NCBI RefSeq assembly: GCF_003014735.1
Contig: NZ_PYAX01000013.1
Location: 62,001 to 126,000, forward strand
Source: Saccharothrix carnea
GTDB lineage: Bacteria; Actinomycetota; Actinomycetes; Mycobacteriales; Pseudonocardiaceae
DNA length: 64,000 nt
Direction: 5' to 3'
Position numbers and translations under genes: made by a program
Shown here: positions 34,498-50,732 of the stretch, one piece after another
Position numbering within the stretch: the first letter of the stretch is position 1
Layout of the letters: each line of letters begins with the position of its first letter
The notes under the pieces: generated by a model
What the model saw: the letters and a program-made list of their open reading frames with translations, nothing else
The model's database searches: none
What the model was told of the DNA's origin: nothing

Positions 34498-37464
34498 TCA
34501 CCAGGTGTCCACGAACGGGCGTTTCTTGCCGGTCCTGACCTGGACGGGGTCGGGACCGGTGAGCAGGGTGGTGATCCAGCGCCGGGTGTCGGCGGGGTCG
34601 ATCACGTCGTCGATCTCGTAGGCGGAGGCCACGTTGAGCGCCTTGCCGTGCTCGTAGGCGGCGGAGACCATCGCCTCGAACATCTCCTTGCGCTGCGCCG
34701 GGTCGTCGATGGCGTCCAGCTCGCGCCGGTACCCGAGCCGCACCGCGCCTTCCAGCCCCATCGGGCCGAACTCGCCGCTGGGCCACGACACCGCGAACAG
34801 CGGCACCTTCAAGCTGCCCGCCGCCATCGCCTGCGCACCCAGCCCGTAGGCCTTGCGCAGTGCCACGAACCCGAACGGCACGTCGAGGTTCGCGCCGGCC
34901 ACGAGCATCCGGGTCAGGTGCCGCACGGTCGCCGTCCGCTCGGCGTCCGGCCCGACCATGAACCCCGGCGTGTCGCACAACGACACCACCGGCAGGTCGA
35001 ACGCGTCGCACAGCTGCAGGAACCGTGCGGCCTTGTCGGCGGAGTTCGCGTCGATCGCGCCGCCGAGGTGGCCGGGGTCGTTCGCGATCAGCCCCAACGG
35101 CCGACCCTCGACCCGGACCAGCGCGGTGACGATGCCGCGTCCGAACTCCGGCCGCAGCTCCAGCACCGAGCCGGTGTCCGCGACCGTCTCCACCACGGAC
35201 CGCACGTCGTAGGCGCGGACCCGGTTCTCCGGCACGAGGTGGCGCAGCAGCCGCTGGTCGGCGCACTCCCACGCGTCCACTGGCCCTTGGAAGTACGACA
35301 GGTACTTCTTGGCCACCGCGACGGCCTCGGCCTCGTCGGACACCAGCACGTCGATCACGCCGTTGGGCACCTGCACGTCGACCGGCCCGACCTCTTCCGG
35401 CCGGAACACGCCGAGCCCACCGCCCTCGATCATGGCCGGGCCGCCCATGCCGATCGTCGCGTCACGGGTCGCGATCACCACGTCGCACGTGCCCAGCAGC
35501 ACGGCGTTGCCGGCGAAGCAGCGGCCGGACGCGATGCCGATCAGCGGCACCAGTCCGGAGAGCTTGGCGAACAGGTGGAACGCCAGGCAGTCCAGCCCGC
35601 TCACGCCGCCGTGGTCGGTGTCGCCGGGCCGCCCGCCGCCACCCTCGGCGAACAGCACCACGGGCAGCCGGCGCTGCTCGGCCAGCTCGAACATCCGGTC
35701 CTTCTTGGCGTGGTTGCGCAGGCCCTGCGTGCCCGCCATGACCGTGTAGTCGTAGGACATCGCGACGACCTGGCCGCCGTTCACCGTGCCGACGCCCGCC
35801 ACCAAACCGTCCGCCGGCGTGCGTTCGACCAGCTCGTCCAACGACCGGCGGCGGCGTTGCGCGGCGATGGCCAACCCGCCGTACTCCACGAACTCCTCGC
35901 ACAGGTCGGCGATGTTCTCCCGGACCGTGCGGCGGCCGGCCGCGTGCCGCTTCGCCTCCGCCTCGGGACGTGAGAAGTCGTGCCGCGCCAGCGTTTCGGC
36001 GAGGTCGGGCCGCACGTCGTCCAGGTCGACCTCGACGGCCTTCTCCTCGACGGCCACGTCGACGCCCTCGGCGAGCAACGCGCCTTCCGCGACCGTGTCG
36101 CCGACCTCGACCAGCACCCGCGCGTCACCGATCGGCACGACGTGCTGCATCTTCATCGCTTCCACGACGACCGTGCCGTCCTCGACCGCGACGACGGTTC
36201 CCTGCACGGGAGCGCGCGCTCCGGTGTCCTCACGGGGCAGTGAATCGACCAGGCCCGTGTGCGCCTTCAGCACGTCCGGGTGGTCCAGCAGCCCGCGCAG
36301 GAAGCCGATGTTGGTCCTGGCACCGTCCACTGTGAATTCGTCCAGCGCGCGGCGGGCGCGGCGCAGCGCGGTGTCCAGGTCGTCGGCATGCACCACGACC
36401 TTGGCCAGCAGCGGGTCGAAGCCCAGGCCCGCGCGGTAGCCGATGGACGCGTGCGTGTCGACCCGCACGCCCGGTCCCGTTGGCGGGACGAACGCCGAAA
36501 GCCGTCCCGTGGACGTCAGGCTCACGCGCAGTTGCAGCGCGCTGCCGCGTGGCGTGTGGGTCAGGTCCGGCTCGGTCTCGGCCGCCAGCAGCAGTTGGGC
36601 GCGCACCAGGTCCAGCCCGGTGACCTGCTCGGTGACGGTGTGCTCGACCTGCAGGCGCGGGTTGGCCTCCAGGAACGCGAACCGGCCGTCCGGCGCGACC
36701 AGGAACTCGACCGTGCCCAGCCCGGTGTACCGGACGGCACGCGCGATCGTCGTCGCCGCGTCGTGCAGCGCGGACCGCAGCCCGGGGGAGAGGTCCGGCG
36801 CGGGCGCGATCTCGACCAGCTTCTGGTGCCGGACCTGCAACGAGCAGTCCCGGTCGCCGAGCACCGTCGTGCCGACCAACTGCACCTCGACGTGCCGCGC
36901 GGGCTCCAGCAGCTCCTCCACGAACACGGTGTCGTCGCCGAACGCGGCCAGCGCCTCGGCCCGGCACCGCTCGACGGCGGCTTTGAGGTCGGCCAGGCGC
37001 CGCACCACGCGCACGCCCTTGCCGCCGCCACCGGCGACGGCCTTCACGACGACCGCGCCGTGCGCCTTGAAGAACTCCTCGAACCCGTCCTCGGCACCCG
37101 CGAGCACCGGCACGCCCACCTCGGCGGCCAGGGCGCGGGCCCGGCTCTTGTCGCCGAGCAGCTCCAGCACCTCCGGCGGCGGGCCGACGAACGTCAGCCC
37201 GGCCTCGGCGCAGCGGCGGGCGAACCCGGCGTTCTCGGCCAGGAACCCGTAGCCGGGGTGCACCAGGTCGCACCCCTCGGCGGCGGCGAGCACCGCGTCC
37301 GCGTCCAGGTAGGAGCCTTGGAGCCGGACCGCGCGGTCGGCGAACCGGCCGTGCGCGTCGTCGGAGTCGGTGACCAGGGCGACGGTCCGCCAGCCGAGGT
37401 CGGCGGCGGCGCGCAGCACCCGGACGGCGATCTCTCCCCGGTTGGCGACGAGCAGCGTGGGCAC
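34498..37464 (-). CDS. Single-chain acyl-CoA carboxylase (biotin carboxylase-BCCP-carboxyltransferase)
   Basis: A 988-residue fusion. Residues 1-400 are biotin carboxylase (LLVANRGEIAVRVLRA, KAVAGGGGKGVRVV, FLEANPRLQVEHTVTE). A biotin carrier domain follows, with VVEAMKMQH and the biotinyl Lys at residue 438. Residues about 490-988 are a carboxyltransferase (GLVAGVGTVNGGQVVAMSYD; GFMVGPDAERTATVRHLTRM). Most actinobacteria keep these on separate chains. The likely reaction is ATP-dependent carboxylation of a short acyl-CoA; the exact substrate is unknown. GTG 37464 follows GGAGG, and a TetR-type operator overlaps that site. Confidence 0.88.
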   Translation of the reverse strand: MPTLLVANRGEIAVRVLRAAADLGWRTVALVTDSDDAHGRFADRAVRLQGSYLDADAVLAAAEGCDLVHPGYGFLAENAGFARRCAEAGLTFVGPPPEVLELLGDKSRARALAAEVGVPVLAGAEDGFEEFFKAHGAVVVKAVAGGGGKGVRVVRRLADLKAAVERCRAEALAAFGDDTVFVEELLEPARHVEVQLVGTTVLGDRDCSLQVRHQKLVEIAPAPDLSPGLRSALHDAATTIARAVRYTGLGTVEFLVAPDGRFAFLEANPRLQVEHTVTEQVTGLDLVRAQLLLAAETEPDLTHTPRGSALQLRVSLTSTGRLSAFVPPTGPGVRVDTHASIGYRAGLGFDPLLAKVVVHADDLDTALRRARRALDEFTVDGARTNIGFLRGLLDHPDVLKAHTGLVDSLPREDTGARAPVQGTVVAVEDGTVVVEAMKMQHVVPIGDARVLVEVGDTVAEGALLAEGVDVAVEEKAVEVDLDDVRPDLAETLARHDFSRPEAEAKRHAAGRRTVRENIADLCEEFVEYGGLAIAAQRRRRSLDELVERTPADGLVAGVGTVNGGQVVAMSYDYTVMAGTQGLRNHAKKDRMFELAEQRRLPVVLFAEGGGGRPGDTDHGGVSGLDCLAFHLFAKLSGLVPLIGIASGRCFAGNAVLLGTCDVVIATRDATIGMGGPAMIEGGGLGVFRPEEVGPVDVQVPNGVIDVLVSDEAEAVAVAKKYLSYFQGPVDAWECADQRLLRHLVPENRVRAYDVRSVVETVADTGSVLELRPEFGRGIVTALVRVEGRPLGLIANDPGHLGGAIDANSADKAARFLQLCDAFDLPVVSLCDTPGFMVGPDAERTATVRHLTRMLVAGANLDVPFGFVALRKAYGLGAQAMAAGSLKVPLFAVSWPSGEFGPMGLEGAVRLGYRRELDAIDDPAQRKEMFEAMVSAAYEHGKALNVASAYEIDDVIDPADTRRWITTLLTGPDPVQVRTGKKRPFVDTW

Positions 37465-37473
37465 TTTAACCTC

Positions 37474-37489
37474 CTGAGCGACCGCTTAG
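37474..37489. promoter_or_regulatory. CTAAGC-type operator before acyl-CoA carboxylase
   Basis: CTGAGC-gacc-GCTTAG, one mismatch from the palindrome CTAAGC-N4-GCTTAG seen at 39651, 39669 and 48857. It touches the GGAGG of the carboxylase gene, so bound repressor would block initiation. Confidence 0.65.
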
Positions 37490-37621
37490 TATGTGACCGC
37501 GGTCGCATAGTGGCACCTGGACTTAGCGTTCGTCCAGAGGGAACCGATGCACCTGTCGAGGCGTCCTTGGAGAAACCCGAGGTCAAGGGCGTGACACAGA
37601 GCAGGCCAGGAGGCACCCACC

Positions 37622-38419
37622 GTGGTTTTCAAGAGGATGTTGCGCGCGTTCGGAGTCGGCGGTCCCTCGGTGGACACGGTGCTGGCCAACCCCAACGTGC
37701 GGCCGGGTGAGCCGGTCACCGGCGAGGTCCGCATCGCGGGCGGCGACCACGCCGCCGACATCGACCAGGTCAAGTTGTCGCTGGTCACCCGCGTCGAGGT
37801 GGAGAGCGGAGACAACGAGTACAACCGCAACACCGAGTTCGCCCAGGTCGTGGTGGGGCAGCGGATCGCCGTCGCGCCGGGGCAGAACCTGGTGCTGCCG
37901 TTCCAGTTCCCGGTGCCGTTCGAGACGCCGCTGACCGTCGTGCACGGCCGGCACCTGCACGGCATGACGATGGGCCTGCGCACGGAGCTGGAGGTGCGCG
38001 GCGCCGTCGACCCCGGCGACCTCGACCCGGTGGCCGTGCACCCGACGCGGTCGCAGGAGCACGTGCTCAACGCGTTCGGCGCGCTCGGGTTCCGCTTCCA
38101 GCGGGCCGACAACGAGGCCGGGCGCATCCACGGCGTGCCGCAGCAGCTGCCGTTCTACCAGGAGATCGAGTTCCTGCCGCCGGGGCAGTTCCTGGGCAAG
38201 ATCGCCCAGCTGGAGCTGACCTTCGTGACCGACCCGCACCGGCTGTTCGTGGTGCTGGAGGCGGACCGCCGCGGCGGGCTGTTCCGGGCGGGCGGCGACT
38301 CGTTCGGGCACTTCGCCATGTCGCACGATGAGGTGATCCGCACGGACTGGGCGGCGCTGCTGCACCAGTGGATGGACCAGGTCTCCGGCAGGCGATCTTC
38401 CCACGGTTTCGGCCACTAG
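37622..38419 (+). CDS. spo0M: Spo0M-family sporulation-control protein
   Basis: A 265-residue protein from GTG 37622 with AGGAGG about 9 bases upstream. The Spo0M/arrestin-like beta fold shows in VFKRMLRAFGVGGPSVDTVL, VRPGEPVTGEVRIAGGDHAA and the late LFVVLEADRRGGLFRAGGDS. Spo0M modulates sporulation entry in Bacillus; the actinobacterial role is unclear. The frame stops at 38419 after HGFGH, while an acidic, family-like tail continues in another frame to 38556 (see findings). Confidence 0.85.
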   Translation: MVFKRMLRAFGVGGPSVDTVLANPNVRPGEPVTGEVRIAGGDHAADIDQVKLSLVTRVEVESGDNEYNRNTEFAQVVVGQRIAVAPGQNLVLPFQFPVPFETPLTVVHGRHLHGMTMGLRTELEVRGAVDPGDLDPVAVHPTRSQEHVLNAFGALGFRFQRADNEAGRIHGVPQQLPFYQEIEFLPPGQFLGKIAQLELTFVTDPHRLFVVLEADRRGGLFRAGGDSFGHFAMSHDEVIRTDWAALLHQWMDQVSGRRSSHGFGH

Positions 38420-38556
38420 GACGGTCGCCGCGGAGGTCACCGGTCGGTGGGTCGCCCACCGGCCGGGCCGCCGCTGGCGCTGCGGCCGGCGCGTTCGGTG
38501 GGGATGATGACGAAGAGGCCCTCGACGAGGTCGGGGACTTCTTCGAAGGCGACTAA
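38420..38556 (+). pseudogene. Possible out-of-frame tail of spo0M
   Basis: After the spo0M stop the -1 frame is open and encodes RAAAGAAAGAFGG followed by DDDEEALDEVGDFFEGD and a TAA at 38554-38556. Fifteen bases later the next gene starts. Ala/Gly-rich then acidic tails end many actinobacterial Spo0M proteins, so this looks like coding sequence separated by a stop and a frameshift. It could also be a sequencing error, or an independent small frame starting at GTG 38368. Confidence 0.35.
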
Positions 38557-38571
38557 CCGGCAGGAGGCATC

Positions 38572-38844
38572 GTGGGCATCGGCGGTGTGATCAGCGCTCT
38601 GATCGTGGGTCTCATCATCGGCTTGCTCGGCAAGCTCATCGCGCCGGGCAAGCAGGCCATCCCCATCTGGCTGACGATCATCGTCGGCATCGTGGCGGCG
38701 TTCCTGGGCACGTTCGTCGCCCGGGCGCTCGGCGTGGAGGACACGCCCGGCATCGACTGGATCGAGATCATCGTGCAGGTGATCATCGCCGCCATCGGCG
38801 TCAGCCTCGTCGCAGGGTTCTACGGCAAGAAATCCGTCCGCTGA
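38572..38844 (+). CDS. GlsB/YeaQ/YmgE family small membrane protein
   Basis: A 90-residue protein from GTG 38572 behind GGCAGGAGG. Three hydrophobic helices with Gly patterns (ISALIVGLIIGLLGKLIAPG, IIVGIVAAFLGTFVARALGV, IIAAIGVSLVAGFYG) define the transglycosylase-associated/GlsB family, linked to general stress. It probably shares a transcript with spo0M. Confidence 0.88.
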   Translation: MGIGGVISALIVGLIIGLLGKLIAPGKQAIPIWLTIIVGIVAAFLGTFVARALGVEDTPGIDWIEIIVQVIIAAIGVSLVAGFYGKKSVR

Positions 38845-38864
38845 CCCACCTCACCGCCCTCCAC

Positions 38865-38989
38865 CCGCGCGTGTCCTACGTTCCGGTACCCCATGTTGAA
38901 CACTCGGGACGGCCGACCGCCGTTCTGAACGTTCAACATGGGCGTTCTGAACGTAGGACACGCGTGACGCGAACGTAGGACACGCGCGG
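38865..38989. repeat. Nested REP-like inverted repeat element
   Basis: Outer perfect 19-base arms at 38865-38883 and 38971-38989 (core GAACGTAGGACACGCG). A further direct copy of that core lies at 38949-38964. Inner perfect 12-base arms CCCATGTTGAAC (38890-38901) and GTTCAACATGGG (38931-38942). CGTTCTGAACGT is also repeated directly at 38921 and 38943. It lies between convergent genes and could fold into a large cruciform or act as a terminator. Confidence 0.8.
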
Positions 38990-39610
38990 TCAGGTGGGGG
39001 TGCCCACCATGCGCAGGACCAGGTCGGCGTAGAGGTCGCCGATCTCGGTGGGGGTGCGGCGGCCGGACGGCTGGTACCAGCGGGCCACGTCGATGCACAG
39101 CGAGAGCACCGCCAGGGTCGCCCCGCGCACGTCGGGCACGTCGAACACGCCCGCCCGCACGCCCTCGGTGATCATGTCGCGCACGGCCGCCTCGATGCGC
39201 CGCCGCAGCTCCACCACCTCGGCCAGGTGCTCCGGCGTCAACGCGCTCAACTCGTACTGAACGACCCGCGCCGTCGTGTGGTACTCCGCGTGCCACGACG
39301 CGAACGCCCGCACGGCCGCCGCCAGCCGCTCCACGGGGTCCACCTCGGACACACCGGTCAGCACCGACAGCGACGTGGCGTGCCCGATCCGCGAGATCTG
39401 GAACAGCAGTTCCTCTTTGGACCGGTAGTGGATGTAGACCGCGGCCGGTGACATGCCCGCCTGCGCCGCGATGTCCCGGGTCGTCGTCGCGTGGTACCCG
39501 CGCACCGAGAACGCGGCGGCGGCCGCGATCAGCATCCGGCGGGCCGCCGGCGGCGTCACGGACGACCACGTCTCATCCAGGAGCGCGAACTCACCACTGG
39601 TCGTCGTCAC
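38990..39610 (-). CDS. TetR-family regulator of the acyl-CoA regulon
   Basis: A 206-residue TetR protein from GTG 39610 behind AAGGAGG. The helix-turn-helix is TTRDIAAQAGMSPAAVYIHY after RRMLIAAAAAFSVRGYHATT. The helical C-terminus (RVVQYELSALTPEHLAEVVE and TLAVLSLCIDVARWYQPSGR) resembles TetR repressors of fatty-acid catabolism. It is divergent from the acyl-CoA dehydrogenase operon across two tandem palindromes. A candidate promoter (TTGCTT, 17 bases, TAGCCT at 39671-39648 on the minus strand) overlaps both, implying self-repression. Confidence 0.88.
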   Translation of the reverse strand: MTTTSGEFALLDETWSSVTPPAARRMLIAAAAAFSVRGYHATTTRDIAAQAGMSPAAVYIHYRSKEELLFQISRIGHATSLSVLTGVSEVDPVERLAAAVRAFASWHAEYHTTARVVQYELSALTPEHLAEVVELRRRIEAAVRDMITEGVRAGVFDVPDVRGATLAVLSLCIDVARWYQPSGRRTPTEIGDLYADLVLRMVGTPT

Positions 39611-39650
39611 AGTCGACCCTCCTTGACACGAACCCGAACGATACCGCAGG

Positions 39651-39684
39651 CTAAGCACACGCTTAGACCTAAGCAACCGCTTAG
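39651..39684. promoter_or_regulatory. Tandem CTAAGC-N4-GCTTAG operators
   Basis: Two perfect palindromes: CTAAGC-acac-GCTTAG at 39651-39666 and CTAAGC-aacc-GCTTAG at 39669-39684, offset by 18 bases. They lie between the divergent tetR and acyl-CoA dehydrogenase genes. The same 16-mer with spacer aacc recurs at 48857-48872, and a one-mismatch copy at 37474-37489. Confidence 0.8.
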
Positions 39685-39700
39685 TATGGAGGATGCGAGA

Positions 39701-40846
39701 GTGCGCCGCACGCTGTTCGAACCCGACCACGAAGCGTTCCGCGAGACCGCGCAGGCGTTCTGCGACCGCACCCTCCGCCCGAACTACGAGCGGTTCGTCG
39801 AGCAGCGCCACATCGACCGCGACGTGTGGCTCGAAGCGGGCAAGCAGGGCCTGCTCGGCCTGGAGGTCCCCGAGGAGTACGGCGGCAGCGGCGCGAACGA
39901 CTACCGGTTCAACGCCGTGCTCGGCGAGGAGCTGTCCAAGGTCAGCGCCGGCATGTCGTCCTGCCTGGGCATCCACGGCGACGTCGTCGCCCCCTACCTG
40001 GTCGACCTGTGCACCGAGGAGCAGAAGCAGCGCTGGCTGCCCCGGTTCTGCTCGGGCGAGATGACGACCGGCATCGGCATGACCGAGCCCTCCGGCGGCT
40101 CCGACCTCGCCGCGCTCAAGAGCAACGCCGTGAAGCAAGGCGACGACTGGGTCCTCAACGGCTCCAAGACCTTCATCACCAACGGCTTCTCCGCCGACAT
40201 GATCGTGGTCGCCGCGCGCACCAGCCCGGAGAAGAAGGCCAGGGGCATCACCCTGTTCGCCGTCGAGACCGGCATGAAGGGCTTCCAGCGCGGCCGCAAG
40301 CTCGACAAGGTCGGCCAACCCGAGTCCGACACCGCCGAGCTGTTCTTCGAGGACGTGCGCGTGCCGCAGGAAAACGTGATCGGCGAGGTCGACCAAGGCT
40401 TCATCTACATGATGGAACGCCTGCCGCAGGAACGCCTCGGCGGTGCGATCTCCAACCTGGCCCACGCCAAGCAGATCCTGCTCGAGACGATCGAGTACAC
40501 CAAGGAGCGCAAGGCGTTCGGCCAGTCCATCGGCTCGTTCCAGCACAACAAGTTCACCCTCGCCGAGCTGGTCACCAAGATCGACATCACGCAGGCGTTC
40601 CTGGACCAGTGCACCGACGCGCACACCCGCCGCGAGCTGACCGCCGTGGACGCGGCGAAGGCGAAGTGGTGGAGCGCGGACGTGCAGAACGACGTCATCG
40701 ACGCGTGCGTGCAGCTGCACGGCGGCTACGGCTACATGACCGAGTACCGCGTGGCCCGCGCCTGGATGGACGCCCGGGTGACCCGGATCTGGGCCGGCTC
40801 CAACGAGATCATGAAGGAACTCATCGGCCGCGACCTCGGCCTCTAG
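39701..40846 (+). CDS. Acyl-CoA dehydrogenase
   Basis: A 381-residue flavoenzyme. IGMTEPSGGSDLAALKSNAV is the first family signature and QLHGGYGYMTEYRVARAWMD the second, with ITNGFSADMIVVAART and the C-terminal RIWAGSNEIMKELIGRDLGL. It oxidises acyl-CoA to enoyl-CoA using FAD. GTG 39701 was chosen for GGAGG at 39688-39692; the ATG at 39686 lies inside the operator/leader. First gene of an operon with thiolase and SDR. Confidence 0.92.
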   Translation: MRRTLFEPDHEAFRETAQAFCDRTLRPNYERFVEQRHIDRDVWLEAGKQGLLGLEVPEEYGGSGANDYRFNAVLGEELSKVSAGMSSCLGIHGDVVAPYLVDLCTEEQKQRWLPRFCSGEMTTGIGMTEPSGGSDLAALKSNAVKQGDDWVLNGSKTFITNGFSADMIVVAARTSPEKKARGITLFAVETGMKGFQRGRKLDKVGQPESDTAELFFEDVRVPQENVIGEVDQGFIYMMERLPQERLGGAISNLAHAKQILLETIEYTKERKAFGQSIGSFQHNKFTLAELVTKIDITQAFLDQCTDAHTRRELTAVDAAKAKWWSADVQNDVIDACVQLHGGYGYMTEYRVARAWMDARVTRIWAGSNEIMKELIGRDLGL

Positions 40847-40865
40847 GACTGCAGGAGACACCGCC

Positions 40866-42068
<1,203 letters not shown>

Positions 42069-42830
42069 ATGGGAATCCTGGACAAGTTCCGGCTGGACGG
42101 GCAGGTCGCGATCGTCACCGGCGCGTCGTCCGGCTTGGGCGTGGCGTTCGCCAAGGGCCTCGCCGAGGCCGGTGCGGACGTGGTGCTCGCCGCACGGCGG
42201 GTGGAACGGCTCAAGGACACCGCGCAGCTGGTGGAGAGCACCGGTCGGCGCGCGCTGATCGTGCAGGCGGACGTGGCGCAGCCGGACGACTGCCGTGAGG
42301 TGGCCCGTGCGGCGGCGGAGTTCGGCCCGGTGCACGTGCTGGTGAACAACGCGGGTGTGGCGTCGGCGGTGCCCGCGTCCCGGGAGACGCCCGAGCAGTT
42401 CCTCGGCGTCATGGACGTCAACCTCAACGGCACCTACTGGATGGCGCAGGCGGCGGCGGCCGTGATGACCGGCGGCGGGTCGATCATCAACATCTCCAGC
42501 GTGCTCGGCCTGGTCTCCGGCGGGCTGCCGCAGGCCGCGTACTCGGCGTCGAAGGCGGGCGTGATCGGCCTGACCCGCGACCTGGCGCAGCAGTGGACCG
42601 GCCGCAAGGGCATCCGGGTCAACGCGATCGCGCCCGGCTACTTCGCCTCCGAGATGACCGACCAGTACCCCGAGGGCTACCTCGAAGCGCACATCTCGAA
42701 GCTGCCGATGGGCCGGGTGGGCGACCCGGAGGAACTGGCGGCGGCAGTCGTGTTCCTGGCGTCGGCGGCGGGCGGCTACACCACCGGCCAGACGTTCGTG
42801 GTCGACGGCGGCGTCACGATCGGCAGCTGA
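42069..42830 (+). CDS. SDR-family 3-hydroxyacyl dehydrogenase-like protein
   Basis: A 253-residue short-chain dehydrogenase. TGASSGLGVAFAKGLAEAGA binds the nucleotide, LVNNAG follows, and ISSVLG with YSASKAG gives Ser-Tyr-Lys. It starts directly after the thiolase stop. In this operon it is likely to act on a 3-hydroxyacyl-CoA or related alcohol. Confidence 0.85.
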   Translation: MGILDKFRLDGQVAIVTGASSGLGVAFAKGLAEAGADVVLAARRVERLKDTAQLVESTGRRALIVQADVAQPDDCREVARAAAEFGPVHVLVNNAGVASAVPASRETPEQFLGVMDVNLNGTYWMAQAAAAVMTGGGSIINISSVLGLVSGGLPQAAYSASKAGVIGLTRDLAQQWTGRKGIRVNAIAPGYFASEMTDQYPEGYLEAHISKLPMGRVGDPEELAAAVVFLASAAGGYTTGQTFVVDGGVTIGS

Positions 42831-42928
42831 TCGTCCATGGGTGGAATTCCCGACTTGTGACCCACCGCGGCGGCGCGGCGATCTAGCCTGGCGTTCAGGG
42901 GAGATCGCCGTCCGCACGGGGGAGTTCC

Positions 42929-44122
42929 GTGGTCGCGAAGAGCTCGACCGAAGAACCAGGCTTCACCATCCTCGAACCGCCGCGGTCGGTGTTCCGGCGC
43001 AAGCGCTTCCTGCTGCCGTTCGGCGTATCGGCGGGCATCGCGCTGGTCGGGGTGGTCGCGCTGTTCGCGTCCGGCACGGTGGCGCTGCCGTTCCAGCGGA
43101 TCACCGTGGTCAGCGCCATGATGGCGTCCAAGTCGGTGTACTTCCAGGACCCCGAGGTCCGCCGGATCCTGATGGCCAACGGCGTCGACGTGCGGGTCAC
43201 CGACTCGGGCGGGTCGCGGGAGATCGCGCGGGACCGGCAGGACCGGGTCCGCGAGTACGACTTCGTGATGCCGTCCGGGCAGGCCGCGGGCGAGCTGATC
43301 CGGGACCGCTTCGGCGGCCGGGTGTTCTTCCCGTTCGCCAGCCCGCTCGTGCTGGGCGCGTTCAAGGAGTACGCGCAGGCGCTGGAGGCCGAAGGCGTGG
43401 CGCGGGCGCAGGCGGACGGGCTCTACTACACCCTCGACCTGGCCGCGTTCGTCAAGCTCTCCCTGCCCGACGACGGGAGCCGGGCGAAGACCTGGAACCA
43501 GCTCGAGCAGCCGGTCGACAACCGCAACCAGATCGTCGCCCAGTCGCCCAACCCGTGCGACTCCTACTCGGGCTCGGCCTGGATGGGCCTGGTCGCGTTC
43601 GCCGTCAACGGCTCCGTTCCCCCGACCGAGCAGGACGCGTCCGCCGTCGCGGCGAAGATCAAGCCGGTGTTCGAGATCGAAGGGCTGCACGGCTCCGGCA
43701 TCGGCACCACGTTCTTCCACCCGGACGGCCGCACCACGGCACCGGTCGGCGTCATGTACGAGCACCAGTTCATGGCCTACCAGCTCGCCGAGGTGGCGAA
43801 GAAGGGCAGGCCCGACCGGGAACGGGTGCTGCTCTACCCGGACGCGCACCACCGCACCGAGCCGTGGCTGATCGCGTTCAGCCCGGCGGGCGAACGGGTC
43901 GGCGAGCTGGTGCGCGGCCACCCCGACCTGCGTCGACGCGCCCTGGAGCTGGGCTTCCGGCTGGACAACGAGGAGTCGACCGCGCTCAACGAGCTGCTGC
44001 GGGAACGCGGGCTGCCCGAGCCGGTGCTCAGCCGCACGGAGGGCTTCCTGCCCAAGCCCCCCGAGCTGGAGAAGATGATCAAGGAGGTCGGTCGCTGCCC
44101 GGAGATCCGGGTGCCGATATGA
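42929..44122 (+). CDS. Membrane-anchored extracytoplasmic protein of vWA module
   Basis: A 397-residue protein from GTG 42929 (GGGGGAG upstream). About 30 cytoplasmic residues precede one membrane helix (LPFGVSAGIALVGVVALFAS). The large outer domain is solute-binding-like: ITVVSAMMASKSVYFQDPEV, YDFVMPSGQAAGELIRDRFG, and ASPLVLGAFKEYAQALEAEG. No transporter is nearby. Its stop overlaps the ATG of the vWA lipoprotein (ATGA). Function unknown. Confidence 0.75.
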   Translation: MVAKSSTEEPGFTILEPPRSVFRRKRFLLPFGVSAGIALVGVVALFASGTVALPFQRITVVSAMMASKSVYFQDPEVRRILMANGVDVRVTDSGGSREIARDRQDRVREYDFVMPSGQAAGELIRDRFGGRVFFPFASPLVLGAFKEYAQALEAEGVARAQADGLYYTLDLAAFVKLSLPDDGSRAKTWNQLEQPVDNRNQIVAQSPNPCDSYSGSAWMGLVAFAVNGSVPPTEQDASAVAAKIKPVFEIEGLHGSGIGTTFFHPDGRTTAPVGVMYEHQFMAYQLAEVAKKGRPDRERVLLYPDAHHRTEPWLIAFSPAGERVGELVRGHPDLRRRALELGFRLDNEESTALNELLRERGLPEPVLSRTEGFLPKPPELEKMIKEVGRCPEIRVPI

Positions 44123-45579
44123 GGTGGGCCGCCCTGCTCCTGGTGGTGGCCGCCCTGGCCGCCTGCACGTCCGAGAAGCCCGAGCGGGTCACGGTGACCG
44201 TGCTGGCCAGTTCGGAACTGGCGGACCTGCACGACGTGCTCGCCGACCTGCGCCGTGACACCGGGGTCGAGCTGAAGCTGGACCACCGCGGCACCGTGCG
44301 GGCGAGCGAGGACCTGGCCGCCGGCGTGGACCACGACCTGGCCTGGCTGTCCACGAACCGGTACCTCAAGCTCAAGGGCGTCGACCTGCCGCCGTCCTCG
44401 CCCACGATGCTCTCGCCGCTGGTGCTGGGCGTGAAGCGGGGCAAGGCGGGAGGGCTGCGGGACGTGTCGTGGGCCGACGTGGCGAGCCGCGCGGCGGCGG
44501 GGGAGCTGCGGTTCGGCATGGCCGACCCGAGGGTGTCGGGCAGCGGGATGGCGGCGTTGATCGGGGTGGCCACGGCCGCCGCGGGCACGGGTGCGGCGTT
44601 GCGGGCGGAGGACGTGACCTGCGACAAGCTCCAGGGCTTCCTGACCGGACGGGTGTTCGGCGCACCGGGCGCGGCCGAGGTCGCCGACGAGTACGTGGCG
44701 CGGCAGGACGAGGTGGACGCCGTGGTCGCGTACGAGTCGACCGTGCTGTCGCTGAACGCGTCCGGGCAGCTGCGCGAGCCGTTGGAGGTCGTGTACCCGC
44801 GGGACGGGATCGTGCTGTCGGACTACCCGTTGATGCTGCTCAAGCCGGACAAGCGGGCCGCCTACGACCGGGTCGTGCAGTGGCTGCGCACGCCGTCCGC
44901 CCAGCGCTCGATCATGGAGCGCACGCACCGCAGGCCGGTGGACCCGCAGGTCGAGCGCACGGACGGGCTGCGCGAGCCGATCGGCACGGGGCTGTACTTC
45001 CCCGGCACGCAGCAGGTCGTGGACACCCTGCTCGCCGCCTACGACCGGGCCGGTCAGGCGGGCCGGGTGGTGTTCGTGCTGGACCACTCGACGTCCATGG
45101 CGGGTGCGCGGATCGCCGGGCTGCGGGAGGCGTTCGCGACGTTGAGCCGGGCGGGCGGGTTCGACCGGTTCCGGGTGGGGGAGACGGTCGTGCTGGTGCG
45201 GTTCGCGGGCAGCGTGCTGGAGGAGCGCACCGTCGTGATCAGGAGTGCCGCCGACCTGGAGTCGCTGGCCACCGCGTTGACGACGGCCGAGCTGTCCGAG
45301 ACCGGCACCGCGATCTGGTCGGCGCTGGACCACGCCTACCGGGTCGTCGGCGACGGCACGGTGGTGCTGATGACCGACGGCGAGAACAACGCGGGGATGA
45401 GCGCGGACGGGTTCCTGGCCGCTTGGCCGGCCCCACCGGCGCGCACGTACGCGATCCGGTTCGGCGAGGCCGACCCGGTGGAGCTGGACCGGGTGGCGCG
45501 GGCGACCGGCGGGCGCGTGGTGGACGCGGGCTCGGGGTCGCTGCTGGAGGCGGTGAAGGAGATCCGTGGCTGTCGATAG
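44119..45579 (+). CDS. Lipoprotein fusing solute-binding-like and von Willebrand A domains
   Basis: A 486-residue lipoprotein. The signal MRWAALLLVVAALAAC puts the lipidated Cys at 16. Residues about 20-290 resemble a type 2 solute-binding domain (VTVLASSELADLHDVLADLR; GMADPRVSGSGMAALIGVAT; VVYPRDGIVLSDYPLMLL). Residues 316-486 are a vWA domain with an intact metal site: D-x-S-x-S at 322-326 (FVLDHSTSM), a Thr in ETGTAI, and LMTDGENN. Such fusions occur in actinobacteria without known function. Translationally coupled at both ends. Confidence 0.82.
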   Translation: MRWAALLLVVAALAACTSEKPERVTVTVLASSELADLHDVLADLRRDTGVELKLDHRGTVRASEDLAAGVDHDLAWLSTNRYLKLKGVDLPPSSPTMLSPLVLGVKRGKAGGLRDVSWADVASRAAAGELRFGMADPRVSGSGMAALIGVATAAAGTGAALRAEDVTCDKLQGFLTGRVFGAPGAAEVADEYVARQDEVDAVVAYESTVLSLNASGQLREPLEVVYPRDGIVLSDYPLMLLKPDKRAAYDRVVQWLRTPSAQRSIMERTHRRPVDPQVERTDGLREPIGTGLYFPGTQQVVDTLLAAYDRAGQAGRVVFVLDHSTSMAGARIAGLREAFATLSRAGGFDRFRVGETVVLVRFAGSVLEERTVVIRSAADLESLATALTTAELSETGTAIWSALDHAYRVVGDGTVVLMTDGENNAGMSADGFLAAWPAPPARTYAIRFGEADPVELDRVARATGGRVVDAGSGSLLEAVKEIRGCR

Positions 45580-46321
45580 AGCGCTGTGGTGGTCGGTGTG
45601 GTGGCCGTGGGCGGTGGTGTGGCTGGTGACCGTGCTGGCGGTGGTCGCCACCATCGGGGTCACGGTGTGGGCGTGGCGGTCGCGGCACCGGTTCGCACCG
45701 GCCCGCGAGGTGCCCGGGCTGACCATCTACCTGCACGAGAAGTCCGTGATGGACCTCTACCAGGTCGGGGGGTTCGGCGACGCAATGGCCAAGGAGGTCG
45801 TGGACCGGGTCGGCGTCACCAAGGACGGCAAGATCGCGTTGCGGGGCCTGGACCTGGGCGTGGAGGGCGTGCGGACGTCCGGGCGCGAGGTGGTGAAGAC
45901 CTACATCGAGCAGTACGAGCCGATCGCCGTGGTCGGCCTGCTGCTCGACGCGCTGGAGTCCGCGTCCGCGGTCGTGCACGTCGACCTGGGCGACCTGACC
46001 GTGCTGCGGAACACGGCGCTGGAACAGCGCGCGCAGACGCCCGACGTGGTGCGACTGCGGCGGCTGGACGCGTACGTGTCGGTGAAGGGCGTGTTCCGGG
46101 TGGTGTCGGACGGTGACGGCACGACGGTGTTCCTGGCGCCGTTCGGCGACCCGGACGACCCCGAGGACGGGCCGCAGGTGCGGGTCGAGTGCTACCACTC
46201 GGGGCTGCGCGACGACGTCGTGCCCGAGGGCGGGTTCCGGGCGCAGTGCCTGGGCCGGGTGCAGGCGTGGAAGGCGGACTCCCGGGAGCTGGTGATCCGG
46301 CCGATCGCCATGTTCCAGTGA
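45566..46321 (+). CDS. Membrane-anchored third protein of vWA module
   Basis: A 251-residue protein from GTG 45566, overlapping the vWA lipoprotein gene by 14 bases. One N-terminal helix (WAVVWLVTVLAVVATIGVTVW) is followed by a soluble alpha/beta domain (VPGLTIYLHEKSVMDLYQVG; VVKTYIEQYEPIAVVGLLLD; YVSVKGVFRVVSDGDGTTVF). If the helix is oriented by the positive RSRHR after it, the domain is cytoplasmic, which would connect the outer proteins to the cell interior. No family recognised. Confidence 0.75.
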   Translation: MAVDRALWWSVWWPWAVVWLVTVLAVVATIGVTVWAWRSRHRFAPAREVPGLTIYLHEKSVMDLYQVGGFGDAMAKEVVDRVGVTKDGKIALRGLDLGVEGVRTSGREVVKTYIEQYEPIAVVGLLLDALESASAVVHVDLGDLTVLRNTALEQRAQTPDVVRLRRLDAYVSVKGVFRVVSDGDGTTVFLAPFGDPDDPEDGPQVRVECYHSGLRDDVVPEGGFRAQCLGRVQAWKADSRELVIRPIAMFQ

Positions 46322-46343
46322 TCGGGCGTGCGATGCTTGGCCC

Positions 46344-46931
46344 ATGGCATCGGTACCGGAGCGGCTGATCGACGCCGCGACGCGGTTGTTCGCCGCCAAG
46401 GGCTTCGACCGGGTCGCGGTGCAGGACATCGTGGACCTGGCGGGCGTCACCAAGGGCGCCATGTACCACTACTTCGGGTCCAAGGACGACCTGCTGCACG
46501 AGATCTACGGCAGCCTGCTGCGGATGCAGACCGAGCGCCTGGACCACTTCGCGTCCGGGTCCGCGCCGGTGGCCGAGCGGTTGCACGCGGCGGCGGTGGA
46601 CGTGGTCGTCACGTCGGTGGACAACTTCGACCAGGCCAAGGTGTACTTCCGCTCGGCCGACCACCTGGCCGAGGACAAGCGGCGGGAGATGCGCGCGGAA
46701 CGGCGGCGCTACCACGAGCGCTTCCGGTCGCTGGTCGAGGAGGGGCAGGCCTCGGGCGTGTTCCGCACCGACGTGCCCGCGGACCTGACCGTGCACTACT
46801 TCTTCGGCACGGTGCACCACCTGGGCCAGTGGTACAGCGCGGACGGTCCGCTGTCGGCCAAGCAGGTCGGCCGGCACTTCGCCGACCTGCTGCTGGCGTC
46901 CCTGCGCCCCGTTCCGGAGGACTCACCGTGA
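46344..46931 (+). CDS. TetR-family regulator coupled to DinB gene
   Basis: A 195-residue TetR protein. The helix-turn-helix is VAVQDIVDLAGVTKGAMYHY after LIDAATRLFAAKGFDR. The C-terminal ending (DLTVHYFFGTVHHLGQWYSA) resembles KstR2-type ligand domains. Its TGA overlaps the GTG of the DinB gene (GTGA). No clear palindrome is seen in the 22-base gap upstream. Confidence 0.88.
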   Translation: MASVPERLIDAATRLFAAKGFDRVAVQDIVDLAGVTKGAMYHYFGSKDDLLHEIYGSLLRMQTERLDHFASGSAPVAERLHAAAVDVVVTSVDNFDQAKVYFRSADHLAEDKRREMRAERRRYHERFRSLVEEGQASGVFRTDVPADLTVHYFFGTVHHLGQWYSADGPLSAKQVGRHFADLLLASLRPVPEDSP

Positions 46932-47491
46932 AGTCCGACCTGCACCGCTACCTGCGCGCGGCCCGCGAGGCGCTGCTGTGGAAGCTGGAGGGCCTGTCGC
47001 CCTACGACGTGCGCCGCCCGTTGACGCCGACCGGTACGAACCTGCTGGGCCTGGTCAAGCACCTGGCCGCGATGGAGGTCGGCTACTTCGCCGACACGTT
47101 CGGCCGCCCGTTCCCCGAGCGGTTCGAGTGGATGGGCGAGGACGCCGAGCCCAACGCGGACATGTGGGCGACGGCCGAGGAGTCCCGTGAGGACGTCGTC
47201 GGCCTCTACCGCCGTGCGTGCGAGCACGCCGACGAGACGATCGAGGCGCTGGACCTGGACGCGCCGGGCACCGTGCCGTGGTGGTCGGAGGAGCGCAGGT
47301 CGGTCACCCTGCACCTGGTCCTGGTGCACATGATCGCGGAGACGAACCGGCACGCGGGCCACGCCGACATCGTCCGCGAGCTGGTCGACGGCGCGGCCGG
47401 CTTGCGCCAGGACAACGACAACCTGCCCGCGATGGACTGGGACGCCTACCGCGCCGAACTGGAACGCGTCGCCCGTGAGGCTCAGGACTGA
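46928..47491 (+). CDS. DinB/DUF664 family protein
   Basis: A 187-residue four-helix protein. LVKHLAAMEVGYFADTFG and LVHMIAETNRHAGHADIVRE hold the three His residues that bind metal in DinB-like proteins. Members include thiol transferases that use mycothiol or bacillithiol. It is translationally coupled to the TetR gene before it. Confidence 0.85.
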   Translation: MKSDLHRYLRAAREALLWKLEGLSPYDVRRPLTPTGTNLLGLVKHLAAMEVGYFADTFGRPFPERFEWMGEDAEPNADMWATAEESREDVVGLYRRACEHADETIEALDLDAPGTVPWWSEERRSVTLHLVLVHMIAETNRHAGHADIVRELVDGAAGLRQDNDNLPAMDWDAYRAELERVAREAQD

Positions 47492-47511
47492 GCCCTCCAC
47501 AGCCGCCGTCG

Positions 47512-47605
47512 TTGTCCACAGCCCGCCGCTGCGCGCCCGGGCTTCGTCGGTGCCGTGTGGCAGGGTAAAAGCAGGGGTCCCCTTGGCGGGGACCCCTGCG
47601 GAGCG
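47512..47605. repeat. Hairpin repeat, copy 1, with DnaA-box-like site
   Basis: TTGTCCACA at 47512-47520, then TCGGTGCCG...GGCAGGGTAAAA, and a perfect 12-base stem GCAGGGGTCCCC (47571-47582) with GGGGACCCCTGC (47588-47599) around a TTGGC loop. Read on the minus strand the hairpin is followed by TTTTAC, so it terminates the MaoC gene ending at 47612. Related copies lie at 52638-52729 and 58143-58254. Confidence 0.8.
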
Positions 47606-47611
47606 AGGGAG

Positions 47612-48067
47612 TCAGGCCGGCACGAGCAGGACCACGGTCTCCGCCACGCACGCGGGCTTCGGGTTGCCCTCGATCTCGACGGTCACCTTCACCACCGCCT
47701 GCTTGCCCTGCGCCACGTCCGTGACCTCGGCCAGCTCGGCACCGGCCCGGACCCGCGAGCCGACGGTCACCGGGCTCGGGAAGCGCACCTTGTTCAGCCC
47801 GTAGTTCACGCCCATCGCCAGGCCCTGCACCGTGTAGATGTCCCGGACCAGCAGCGGGATCAGCGACAGCGTCAGGTAGCCGTGCGCGACCGGCGCGCCG
47901 AACGGCCCGGCGGCGGCCTTCTCCAGGTCCACGTGGATCCACTGGTGGTCGCCCGTGGCGTCGGCGAACAGGTTGATCTCGGCCTGCGTGATCTCGTGCC
48001 ACTCGCCGTGGCCGAGGTGCTCGCCCTTGGCCGCTGCCAGCTCGTCGAGGTTCGCGAATACCCGCAT
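47612..48067 (-). CDS. MaoC-like enoyl-CoA hydratase
   Basis: A 151-residue hot-dog-fold protein. HEITQAEINLFADATGDHQW and IHVDLEKAAAGPFGAPVAHG form the R-hydratase motif with catalytic Asp and His. It adds water to trans-2-enoyl-CoA. ATG 48067 lies 2 bases after the SDR stop, so the two form an operon under the 48857 palindrome. Confidence 0.9.
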   Translation of the reverse strand: MRVFANLDELAAAKGEHLGHGEWHEITQAEINLFADATGDHQWIHVDLEKAAAGPFGAPVAHGYLTLSLIPLLVRDIYTVQGLAMGVNYGLNKVRFPSPVTVGSRVRAGAELAEVTDVAQGKQAVVKVTVEIEGNPKPACVAETVVLLVPA

Positions 48068-48069
48068 CG

Positions 48070-48831
48070 TCAGTCCTTCGGTCCGCCGGCGACGTAGACG
48101 ACCTGACCGGACACGAACCCGGCACCCTCGCTGACCAGGAACGACGCCGTGTGCGCGATGTCCTCGGGCGTGCCGACGCGCTGCACGGGGATCGCCGCCG
48201 CCGCACCCTTCTTGAACTCCTCGAAGTCGACGCCGACGCGGGCCGCCGTCGCGGCGGTCATGTCGGTCGCGATGAACCCCGGCGCGATCGCGTTCACCGT
48301 GACGCCGAACTTGCCCAGCTCGATCGCCAACGTCTTGGTGAACCCCTGCAGGCCCGCCTTGGCCGCCGAGTAGTTCGCCTGGCCGCGGTTGCCCAGCGCC
48401 GACGTGCTGGACAGGTTGACGATCCGGCCCCACTTCGCCTCGGTCTGGAACTTCTGCACCGCCCGGCTCATCAGGAACGACCCGCGCAGGTGGACGTTGA
48501 TCACCGCGTCCCAGTCGTCGTCGGTCATCTTGAACAGCAGGTTGTCCCGCAGGATGCCCGCGTTGTTGACCAGGACGGTCGGCGCGCCGAGCTCGTCGGC
48601 GACCCGCTGCACGGCCGCCTCGACCGCCGCGCTGTCGCTGACGTCGACACCCACCGCGATCGCGGTCCCGCCCGAGGCCTTGATCTTCTCCACCGCCTCG
48701 GCGCAGCTGCCCTCGTCGAGGTCGAGCAGCGCGACGGCCATGCCGTCCTGCGCGAGCCGCGTGGCAACGGCGGCGCCGATGCCCCGTGCGGCACCGGTGA
48801 CGATGGCCACCCGTGCGTCCGTCTCGGCCAC
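48070..48831 (-). CDS. FabG-like SDR, 3-oxoacyl reductase/3-hydroxyacyl-CoA dehydrogenase
   Basis: A 253-residue short-chain dehydrogenase from GTG 48831 behind AAGGAGG. TGAARGIGAAVATRLAQDGM, LVNNAGILRDNLLFKM, and LSSTSALGNRGQANYSAAKA carry the coenzyme and Ser-Tyr-Lys motifs. Paired with MaoC, it probably performs the third step of beta-oxidation or its reverse. Confidence 0.88.
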   Translation of the reverse strand: MAETDARVAIVTGAARGIGAAVATRLAQDGMAVALLDLDEGSCAEAVEKIKASGGTAIAVGVDVSDSAAVEAAVQRVADELGAPTVLVNNAGILRDNLLFKMTDDDWDAVINVHLRGSFLMSRAVQKFQTEAKWGRIVNLSSTSALGNRGQANYSAAKAGLQGFTKTLAIELGKFGVTVNAIAPGFIATDMTAATAARVGVDFEEFKKGAAAAIPVQRVGTPEDIAHTASFLVSEGAGFVSGQVVYVAGGPKD

Positions 48832-48856
48832 GGTCAATCCTCCTTGATCTGCGGGC

Positions 48857-48872
48857 CTAAGCAACCGCTTAG
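48857..48872. promoter_or_regulatory. CTAAGC-type operator before SDR-MaoC operon
   Basis: CTAAGC-aacc-GCTTAG, identical to the right-hand copy at 39669-39684. It lies 25 bases before the GTG of the SDR gene. In minus orientation the shared extended sequence is TACTAAGCGGTTGCTTAGG. Confidence 0.75.
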
Positions 48873-48924: not shown

Positions 48925-48936
48925 CCGACTGGTCGG
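48925..48936. promoter_or_regulatory. CCGAC-tg-GTCGG palindrome before SDR/quinone-reductase operon
   Basis: A perfect 5-base inverted repeat with a 2-base centre, 42 bases before the GTG at 48979. It differs from the CTAAGC palindrome and probably belongs to another TetR-type regulator not identified here. Confidence 0.45.
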
Positions 48937-48978: not shown

Positions 48979-49773
48979 GTGGAGTTCTCGGGCAAGGTCG
49001 CACTGGTCACCGGTGCCGCGAACGGCATCGGCGCGGGGGTGGCGCGGCGACTGGCCGCCGCGGGCGCGTCCGTCGTCGTCGCCGACGTGGACGACGTGCG
49101 GGGCGAAGCCGTGGCCGACGAGGTGGGCGGCGTGTTCGCGCACTGCGACGTGCGCGACCCCCGGCACAGCGAGGCGGCGGTCGCGACGGCGGTGGAGCGG
49201 TTCGGCGGCCTCGACATCGCCGTGCTGAACGCGGGCATCGCCACCGGGTTCGGCCTGGGTGACGACTTCGACGTGGAGCGGTACCGCACGGTCATGGGCA
49301 TCAACCTCGACGGCGTCGTGTACGGCGTGCACGCGGCGCTGCCCGAGCTGCGCAAGCGCGGCGGCGGGCACATCGTCGCCACCGCGAGCATGGCAGGCCT
49401 GATGGCGATGCCCATGGACCCCCTCTACGGCGCGAACAAGGCCGCCGTCGTCGGCCTGGTCCGCGGCCTGGGCCCGGTGGCCGCCGCGGACGGCGTCACC
49501 GTCAACGCCGTGTGCCCGTCGTTCGCCGACACCTCGATCATCACCGACATCAAGTCGGCCTTGGAGTCGGCGGGGATGCCGGTGATGAGCGTGGACGACG
49601 TGGTCGACGCGTTCGTCTCCGTGTTGCGCGACGGCAAACCGGGTGAATGCTGGTTCGTGCAGGCCGGACGCCCCAGCGCGCCGTTCACCTTCCCCAACCC
49701 GCCCGGCCCGCGCACCGCCACCGGCGAACGCGTCAAGCTCGACCACGACCCGCTGATCACCGAGGAGAACTGA
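48979..49773 (+). CDS. SDR-family oxidoreductase
   Basis: A 264-residue short-chain dehydrogenase from GTG 48979 behind AGGAGG. TGAANGIGAGVARRLAAAGA binds the nucleotide, and the catalytic region is ATASMAGLMAMPMDPLYGAN with YGANK. The family's C-terminal substrate loop is long and Pro-rich (PSAPFTFPNPPGPRTATGE). It is followed 5 bases later by a quinone reductase gene. Confidence 0.85.
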   Translation: MEFSGKVALVTGAANGIGAGVARRLAAAGASVVVADVDDVRGEAVADEVGGVFAHCDVRDPRHSEAAVATAVERFGGLDIAVLNAGIATGFGLGDDFDVERYRTVMGINLDGVVYGVHAALPELRKRGGGHIVATASMAGLMAMPMDPLYGANKAAVVGLVRGLGPVAAADGVTVNAVCPSFADTSIITDIKSALESAGMPVMSVDDVVDAFVSVLRDGKPGECWFVQAGRPSAPFTFPNPPGPRTATGERVKLDHDPLITEEN

Positions 49774-49778
49774 CACCC

Positions 49779-50732
49779 GTGCGCGCCATCCAGATCACCG
49801 AGTTCGGCGGACCCGAGGTCCTCACCGAGGTCGAGCTGCCCGATCCCGTCGCGGGGCCGGGCGAACTGCTCGTCGACGTCAGCCGCGCGGGCCTGAACTA
49901 CGCCGACACCCACCAGGCCGAGAACTCCTACCTGTCGAAGATGGAGCTGCCGCTGGTGCCCGGCGGCGAGGTCGTCGGCACGGCCGGTGACCGGCGCGTG
50001 GTCGGCCTGACCAACTTCGGCGGGTACGCGGAGAAGGCCGTGGTGCCCGAGGCGACCGCGTTCGACGTGCCGGACGGCGTGGACGACCTGACCGCGTTGA
50101 GCCTGGTCGTGCAGGGTGCGACGGCTTGGCTGCTGCTGCGCCGCAGTGCCCACCTGGAGCCGGGCGAGAGCGTCGTCGTCCACGCGGCCGCCGGCGGGGT
50201 CGGTTCGCTGGCCGTGCAGCTGGCGAAGAAGTGGGGCGCCGGCCGCGTCATCGCTACCGCGAGCAGTGAGGACAAGCGCAAGCTCGCGCTCGACCTGGGC
50301 GCCGACGTCGCCGTGGACTCGACCGCCGAGAACATGACCGAGGTGCTGCGCGAGGCCAACGGTGGACGCCGCGTCGACATCGTCCTGGACATGACCGGCG
50401 GCGCCGTGACCGACCAGAGCATCGCCGCCCTCGCCCCGTTCGGCCGACTGGCGTTCTACGGAATGGCCAGTCGGGAACAACCGACCCCGGTCGCCCCCGG
50501 CCGCCTGCTGGTCGGGTCGAAGACGATCGCGGGCATGTGGCTGCCCCACGCGTTCAAGCTCCCGGGCCGCGTCGTGCACCGGGCGATGGGGGAGCTGTTC
50601 GACCTGGTCCTGTCGGGCGACCTGCGCGCCGTACCGGGCGGCGAGTACGGCCTGTCCGAGGTCCGACAGGCACATGAGGACCTGCGTGCCCGCCGAACCA
50701 CCGGAAAACTCGTCCTGGACCCGTCACGCTGA
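49779..50732 (+). CDS. Zinc-independent medium-chain reductase, quinone oxidoreductase-like
   Basis: A 317-residue protein from GTG 49779. GRAGLNYADTHQ-type text near residue 35, then VHAAAGGVGSLAVQLAKKWG (NADPH site) and GLSEVRQAHEDLRARRTTGK at the end, define the quinone oxidoreductase branch of the MDR superfamily. No zinc-binding Cys cluster is visible. It may reduce enones or enoyl compounds together with the preceding SDR. Confidence 0.88.
   Translation: MRAIQITEFGGPEVLTEVELPDPVAGPGELLVDVSRAGLNYADTHQAENSYLSKMELPLVPGGEVVGTAGDRRVVGLTNFGGYAEKAVVPEATAFDVPDGVDDLTALSLVVQGATAWLLLRRSAHLEPGESVVVHAAAGGVGSLAVQLAKKWGAGRVIATASSEDKRKLALDLGADVAVDSTAENMTEVLREANGGRRVDIVLDMTGGAVTDQSIAALAPFGRLAFYGMASREQPTPVAPGRLLVGSKTIAGMWLPHAFKLPGRVVHRAMGELFDLVLSGDLRAVPGGEYGLSEVRQAHEDLRARRTTGKLVLDPSR

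Follow-up and report, generated by a model that had tools for sequence, protein, structure and literature searches.

The described systems closest to the one considered here are controlled by TetR family regulators. KstR2 (Rv3557c) is a repressor of steroid-ring (HIP) catabolism in mycobacteria and rhodococci. Its reported effector is HIP-CoA and its reported operator is AnCAAGnnCTTGnT (PMC3068626, PMC5380842). BkaR (Rv2506/MSMEG_4718) is described as autoregulated, with two palindromes in its own promoter, and as controlling the divergent accD1-bkdC operon (PMC3920632). For PfmR (TTHB023), of Thermus thermophilus, consensus sites have been mapped at fatty acid biosynthesis promoters (PMC7022988). 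Here, we describe a TetR family regulator encoded in a 64,000-nucleotide stretch of Saccharothrix carnea DNA (contig NZ_PYAX01000013.1, positions 62,001 to 126,000; hereafter, the window). Copies of the palindrome CTAAGC-N4-GCTTAG are found beside its gene and at nearby genes of acyl-CoA metabolism. It is probable that this protein, encoded at 38990-39610, is a homodimeric, autoregulated and acyl-CoA-responsive repressor of beta-oxidation, with the palindromes as its predicted operators.

The protein has the domains of the TetR family (PF00440, 3.1e-16; PF17932, 7.8e-38; both over cut-off) and the fold match agrees. A palindrome near the regulator's own gene, which is a trait of the family, is present in the sequence. 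In an AlphaFold model, with a predicted local distance difference test (pLDDT) score of 94.6, the closest folds are 3him, then PfmR, DarR, AibR, KstR2 and Bacillus FadR. The closest solved structure, 3him, is a TetR protein from Rhodococcus RHA1 (1.6e-40, 42-43% identity), and its entry title names neither function nor operator. PfmR is the second-best solved relative (2.6e-25), but the window sites do not fit its operator, which is given as (a/c)Y(g/t)A(A/C)YGryCR(g/t)T(c/a)R(g/t), and earlier as TACCGACCGNTNGGTN. KstR2 shares the TetR fold, acyl-CoA dehydrogenase, thiolase and SDR targets, a related operator half-site and, to judge by its reported effector, a CoA thioester ligand. However, identity in the fold alignment is 27%, and the operator, target genes and spread are different. 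BkaR is similar in having two palindromes at its own gene and a divergent operon, but is 20% identical in the fold alignment, and its reported operator core, GTTA(N)T(N4)A(N)TAAC, is unlike the window sites. AibR (isovaleryl-CoA) and Bacillus FadR (stearoyl-CoA) are CoA-binding TetR regulators with similar folds and 20-26% identity. Mycobacteria also have a fatty-acid regulator called FdmR. Judged by sequence, the protein is best classed as a TetR regulator of known kind, and not as KstR2, BkaR or PfmR. By analogy, its mode of action may be like that of KstR2 and FadR, with an operator of its own.

Palindromic sites in the window

A first-pass annotation of the window named four CTAAGC-N4-GCTTAG sites. 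All were found exactly where it placed them, three being perfect and one having a single mismatch.

37474-37489: predicted operator at the carboxylase gene, CTGAGCGACCGCTTAG, one mismatch, overlaps the ribosome-binding site
39651-39666: predicted operator between tetR and the acyl-CoA dehydrogenase gene, nearer to tetR, perfect palindrome CTAAGCACACGCTTAG
39669-39684: predicted operator abutting the acyl-CoA dehydrogenase gene start, perfect palindrome CTAAGCAACCGCTTAG
48857-48872: predicted operator before the SDR2-maoC unit, perfect palindrome CTAAGCAACCGCTTAG

As annotated, the first of these touches the carboxylase ribosome binding site, sharing 2 bp with AGGAGG. The two intergenic sites start 18 bp apart. 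An extended identity in the minus orientation (TACTAAGCGGTYGCTYAGG) had also been claimed; this holds for three sites and fails for 39651-39666.

A chance origin of the sites is excluded. Within the window, the mean expectation is 0.37 sites with two mismatches or fewer, and none of 100 shuffles reached four. The genome-wide search suggested with the annotation returned the three perfect copies of the window as the sole ones in 8,918,169 bases (40 contigs). All three are inside 9.3 kb. By Markov models (order 1-3) trained on the window, a genome should contain 0.002-0.010 perfect and 0.4-1.2 one-mismatch copies. Allowing for one mismatch, five places were found: the four window sites and C1:883008, which overlaps the 3' end of an unrelated gene. 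Two-mismatch places number 14. Behind the 10 of these that were read (L006-L015) there was no recognisable acyl-CoA gene, and one (L011) lies between a cytochrome P450-like gene and another gene of TetR-like type. Note that the reversed pattern, used as a control in the same genome, gave 146 matches per strand with two mismatches and 8 with one, which is above the counts for the pattern itself. Since the reversed pattern holds CG steps, which are common in this DNA, we judged it unfair and used the Markov expectations and co-occurrence in its place. Matches of the CTTAGCACACGCTTAG and CTAAGCGTGTGCTAAG type, recurrent in genomes of the order, were rejected because they derive from 23S rRNA; the one locus checked (L049, 404-3016) is in large subunit (LSU) rRNA.

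The genes discussed below are as follows.

33198-34484, minus strand: MFS transporter, MHS-like; best NCBIfam match TIGR00883 (metabolite/H+ symporter), under its cut-off
34498-37464, minus strand: single-chain acyl-CoA carboxylase, 988 aa, biotin carboxylase and carboxyltransferase; relative of the long-chain acyl-CoA carboxylase 4rcn
38990-39610, minus strand: TetR-family regulator (tetR), 206 aa, PF00440 and PF17932 (TetR_C_24)
39701-40846, plus strand: acyl-CoA dehydrogenase; alternative in-frame ATG start at 39686
40866-42068, plus strand: acetyl-CoA acyltransferase (thiolase); passes the NF005890 equivalog (726.6 vs 580 bits)
42069-42830, plus strand: SDR-family dehydrogenase SDR1, last in the dehydrogenase-thiolase run
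46344-46931: second TetR_C_24 regulator
47612-48067, minus strand: MaoC-type hydratase
48070-48831, minus strand: SDR2, of 3-oxoacyl reductase/3-hydroxyacyl dehydrogenase type; under the FabG equivalog cut-offs

Distribution of regulator and sites

In an initial search of 60 genomes, including that of S. carnea, the TetR was found in 28 (E<=1e-30; at most 52 candidates scored per genome). Within the genus it occurs in 19 of 25 genomes, each of which has between 1 and 8 sites with at most one mismatch. The highest count is for G013, whose two contigs repeat the region. Genus members without the TetR (G004, G006, G012, G014, G018 and G023) have 1, 1, 0, 0, 0 and 0 sites, respectively (Mann-Whitney p=3e-4 for genomes with the TetR vs those without). 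Because the initial search scored a limited number of candidates, these six genomes were searched again, with nearly all candidates scored, and no TetR match at E<=1e-15 was found. Each of the six encodes SDR2 (78-87% identical), with MaoC beside it in five, and four keep the second TetR (77-84% identical). Upstream of SDR2 in the six genomes, nothing closer to the operator than five mismatches was detected. Since SDR2 and the second TetR persist without sites, the sites track the first TetR rather than the target gene or the second regulator.

The arrangement varies within the genus. Three members (G009, G011 and G016) lack the carboxylase gene together with its site but still have a site at tetR. 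By eye, the dehydrogenase of G011 has shrunk to an apparent remnant beside the operator. Orthologs of tetR in the genus and Lentzea keep the 39669-type site upstream. Most genus orthologs also have the 39651-type site, with a start-to-start distance of 18-19 bp from its neighbour; it is degraded or absent in G002, G011 (2 mismatches), G016 and G021. At the carboxylase operator the mismatch (CTCAG for CTTAG) is itself kept across the genus and Lentzea and so may tune affinity.

A second inverted repeat, TATGTGACCGCGGTCGCATA, directly adjoins the carboxylase operator at 37490-37509. In the genus and Lentzea, its half-sites are kept and the middle bases are variable. The repeat resembles a CRP-type box (TGTGA-N6-TCRCA). 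In G009, which has no carboxylase, the copy of the repeat has 2 mismatches.

Beyond the genus, 80 named loci were kept from 591 confirmed matches, and the following statements apply to the matches listed. The nearest relatives belong to Saccharothrix. All 10 Lentzea loci have the tandem pair and the carboxylase site, and the SDR2 site was seen in 7 of the 10; of the others, L136 starts within SDR2, and the stretches fetched for L127 and L133 yielded no SDR2. For Streptomyces-type loci (L137-L203, including one metagenome-assembled genome), 53 of 67 have at least one site with one mismatch or fewer. Three of the remaining 14 were read (L140, L160 and L190), and these have CTAAGCGCTTGCTCAC just before tetR. 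The Streptomyces TetR ortholog is 63-71% identical and is encoded beside maoC; in S. coelicolor its gene may be close to SCO1690.

Six Streptomyces-type genomes were chosen via Streptomyces, Actinacidiphila and [Kitasatospora] loci. Together, these hold 23 exact copies of CTAAGCN4GCTYAG (1-6 per genome) vs an expectation of 0.08-0.37 per 8 Mb. Every copy is just upstream of a gene. For 20 of the 23, that gene is a homolog of one in the window: tetR (4 sites), maoC (5), acyl-CoA dehydrogenase (5), thiolase (4) or SDR2 (2). The other three precede hotdog thioesterase genes (2) and another acyl-CoA dehydrogenase gene (1). Identities to the window proteins are 65-69% for TetR, 58-63% for MaoC, 67-69% for thiolase and 72-73% for SDR2.

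Dispersed sites also occur in the more distant family f41, where G290 and G166 have 8 and 6 perfect copies. Beside these are genes for the TetR (51-54%), thiolase (69%, G290), acyl-CoA dehydrogenase (68%, G166), MaoC (58%, G290), SDR2 (74%, G166) and carboxylase homologs (29-32%). Further neighbours are a zinc-type dehydrogenase, an APH-type kinase and more acyl-CoA dehydrogenases, and at least one site (L290) precedes a gene of another kind. In G038, a further family member (TetR 45%), tetR is surrounded by homologs of the acyl-CoA dehydrogenase, thiolase and SDR1 (64-68%). This genome has two imperfect copies, with 3 and 2 mismatches, whose starts are 16 bp apart.

The class-wide sample comprised 246 genomes, with the TetR cut-off at E<=1e-45 and the 12 best first-look candidates scored per genome. 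The TetR was found in 46. Exact CTAAGCN4GCTYAG sites are present in 33 of these 46 genomes vs 21 of the 200 without a match (Fisher p=1.4e-16). Besides that of the window, 29 tetR loci were returned; in 26 of them, the ~130 bp upstream include a copy that departs from the palindrome at no more than two positions. At one locus (L248), the sequence upstream of a 57%-identical tetR is CTGACTAAGCGCTTAGTCAG, as if the half-sites had lost their 4-bp spacer.

Sequence comparison establishes the sites and their association with this regulator, and also which genes are the targets and how far these are conserved. That one local TetR serves all the sites, an idea already in the first-pass annotation, is well supported by co-occurrence, by the copies upstream of tetR and by targets that match even when scattered.

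Transcription units and neighbouring features

The annotated coordinates of tetR proved correct. Gene content was as proposed in that the acyl-CoA targets are present; they do not form one group, being split between three transcription units, and other genes intervene (42929-47491). Similarly, the description of the set as near-complete stands for the dehydrogenase, hydratase, 3-hydroxyacyl dehydrogenase and thiolase steps, and does not stand for a CoA ligase, as no gene for one was seen behind the sites. The transporter gene is 13 bp behind the carboxylase gene, on the same strand. Like 4rcn, the carboxylase is a single chain in which biotin carboxylase precedes carboxyltransferase, a trait of the long-chain acyl-CoA carboxylase type; 4rcn differs in having 1093 residues vs 988. 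The second TetR_C_24 gene is 7 kb from the first, and a counterpart is also near maoC in many Streptomyces loci.

Two further features were noted. A divergent unit encoding SDR3 and a zinc dehydrogenase (48979-50732) has the palindrome CCGACTGGTCGG upstream, at 48925-48936, with similar copies in G006, G009, G011 and G016. Its likeness to the earlier PfmR consensus suggests that another regulator may act there. Between convergent genes, 38868-38964 contains an inverted repeat with 46-nt arms, 80% complementary and 5 nt apart. The 14-mer CGTGTCCTACGTTC has three copies in this region, which is possibly a bidirectional terminator.

Mechanism, alternatives and meaning

From the comparisons we infer DNA binding, a dimer, repression over activation, an acyl-CoA ligand and the type of substrate chain. 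In the mechanism proposed, a TetR homodimer would bind each CTAAGC-N4-GCTTAG palindrome. The tandem pair would govern tetR itself and the divergent acyl-CoA dehydrogenase-thiolase-SDR1 run. Similarly, the 37474-37489 site would govern the carboxylase-transporter unit and the 48857-48872 site SDR2-maoC. Because the sites sit on putative promoter, start or ribosome-binding regions, the bound repressor would block transcription. Candidate -10 hexamers (CATACT, TAGTAT and TACGTT), identified by eye, overlap or are close to the sites. An acyl-CoA made from incoming substrate would then enter the C-terminal pocket and release the repressor, so that beta-oxidation is turned on. Release by acyl-CoA is our best guess, by analogy, because of the target genes and of the effectors of fold neighbours; structure entry titles place stearoyl-CoA with Bacillus FadR and isovaleryl-CoA with AibR. 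Note that the ligand of DarR is c-di-AMP and, therefore, the fold alone leaves the ligand unfixed.

Several observations weigh against this reading. A scan of the region for sigma-70-type promoters found none. In the class-wide sample, 13 of the 46 TetR-bearing genomes have no exact site. A 51%-identical homolog, in G028, has a different palindrome (TTACTGATCGATCAGTAA) and an altered recognition-helix region, and no site was seen at the loci of three homologs with 37-44% identity (L039, L041 and L043). The acyl-CoA dehydrogenases of the six Streptomyces-type genomes are just 44-47% identical to that of the window, and so may be paralogs. Furthermore, 12 of the 21 genomes with a site and no TetR match are from one family, f8; absence of the TetR is less certain in this sample since 12 candidates were scored per genome. 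Seven f8 places were read, in three genomes (G042, G145 and G211). By eye, neighbours are mostly of other kinds (cytochrome P450-like, CoA-transferase-like and xanthine dehydrogenase-like), and directly behind the seven places no homolog of a core target was found save one SDR, 44% identical to SDR2. At one f8 locus, ~3.8 kb from the site, there is an acyl-CoA dehydrogenase with 47% identity to that of the window. Given these neighbours, a related regulator may recognise an operator of similar sequence in f8. The f8 sites are thus left as background or, possibly, as sites of such a regulator. The operator code is a property of this TetR subfamily and not of all relatives.

In the f8 loci L298-L303, CTAAGCANNTGCTCAG-like sites accompany genes of cytochrome P450-like, CoA-transferase-like and SDR type, in genomes with no match to this TetR.

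Logically, the palindromes could belong to another regulator, with the first TetR a bystander. The second TetR_C_24 protein is the obvious candidate, given its position 7 kb away and its recurrence near maoC in Streptomyces. However, four of the genus members that lack the first TetR keep this protein together with SDR2-maoC, yet have no site there. Conversely, in G027 sites lie beside the first TetR, but a homolog of the second was not found in its 16-kb locus. Since the second TetR is retained in four genomes that have lost the sites, it is an unlikely binder, and we regard this explanation as improbable. Still more doubtful is that the regulator is a local KstR2, and part of steroid-ring (HIP) catabolism. 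The two proteins are related in sequence (E 1.7e-14) and fold (template modelling (TM) score 0.76-0.86), but 3him and PfmR outscore KstR2 by far. One reported KstR2 site, CCAAGCGCTTGCTCGG, differs from the Streptomyces operator CTAAGCGCTTGCTCAG at 2 of 16 positions (PMC3068626). As these positions are symmetric, the operators look like cousins. Even so, the KstR2 14-mer is not among the window sites, which lack CAAGnnCTTG and have four variable bases in the middle. The KstR2-3 signature EDRNKQQRK is missing at the aligned place, which reads ELRRRIEAAV. The thiolase scores above the threshold of the general NF005890 model but falls far short of that set for the steroid thiolase model (258 vs 515 bits). 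Nothing of the ipdAB type was seen behind the sites.

A different question is whether the protein binds these sites as an activator, or as a dual regulator, instead of a repressor. There are exceptions in the TetR family; FasR is termed a TetR-like activator in the literature. Given the conserved second inverted repeat next to it, the carboxylase site is probably under composite control. Against this, the sites overlap or abut a ribosome-binding site or start region, where steric repression is usual. Activation or dual control is unlikely, if a little less so than the involvement of another protein. Hence, we retain the proposal of an acyl-CoA-responsive repressor.

No earlier description of this regulator or operator was found in the literature within reach, which left out most subscription papers, and searches with the operator strings returned nothing related. 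According to a 2017 study of Streptomyces coelicolor, neither the genes nor the regulatory signals for the catabolism of triacylglycerol and fatty acids in these bacteria had been described until then (PMC5539140). For Streptomyces and its relatives, it is now possible to name a single regulator and operator code together with a list of target promoters, and the question of regulation is therefore directly testable. While the kind is ordinary, being TetR control of acyl-CoA genes, the scope is broad and apparently unrecognised. Judged from sequence comparison, a beta-oxidation regulon has likely been exposed in Streptomyces and other actinomycetes. On balance, and by a modest margin, we favour an unnamed and widespread actinomycete master repressor of beta-oxidation, with the operator code CTAAGCN4GCTYAG and a core regulon of tetR, acyl-CoA dehydrogenase, thiolase, maoC and SDR2. 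This regulon would be clustered in Saccharothrix and Lentzea, and scattered in Streptomyces and others. In Saccharothrix and Lentzea, the repressor would also have captured the single-chain carboxylase and transporter, with a promoter that has a second, CRP-like inverted repeat. Acyl-CoA breakdown supplies antibiotic precursors and serves the use of storage lipids. Such a master switch, if true, would be of practical interest via both.

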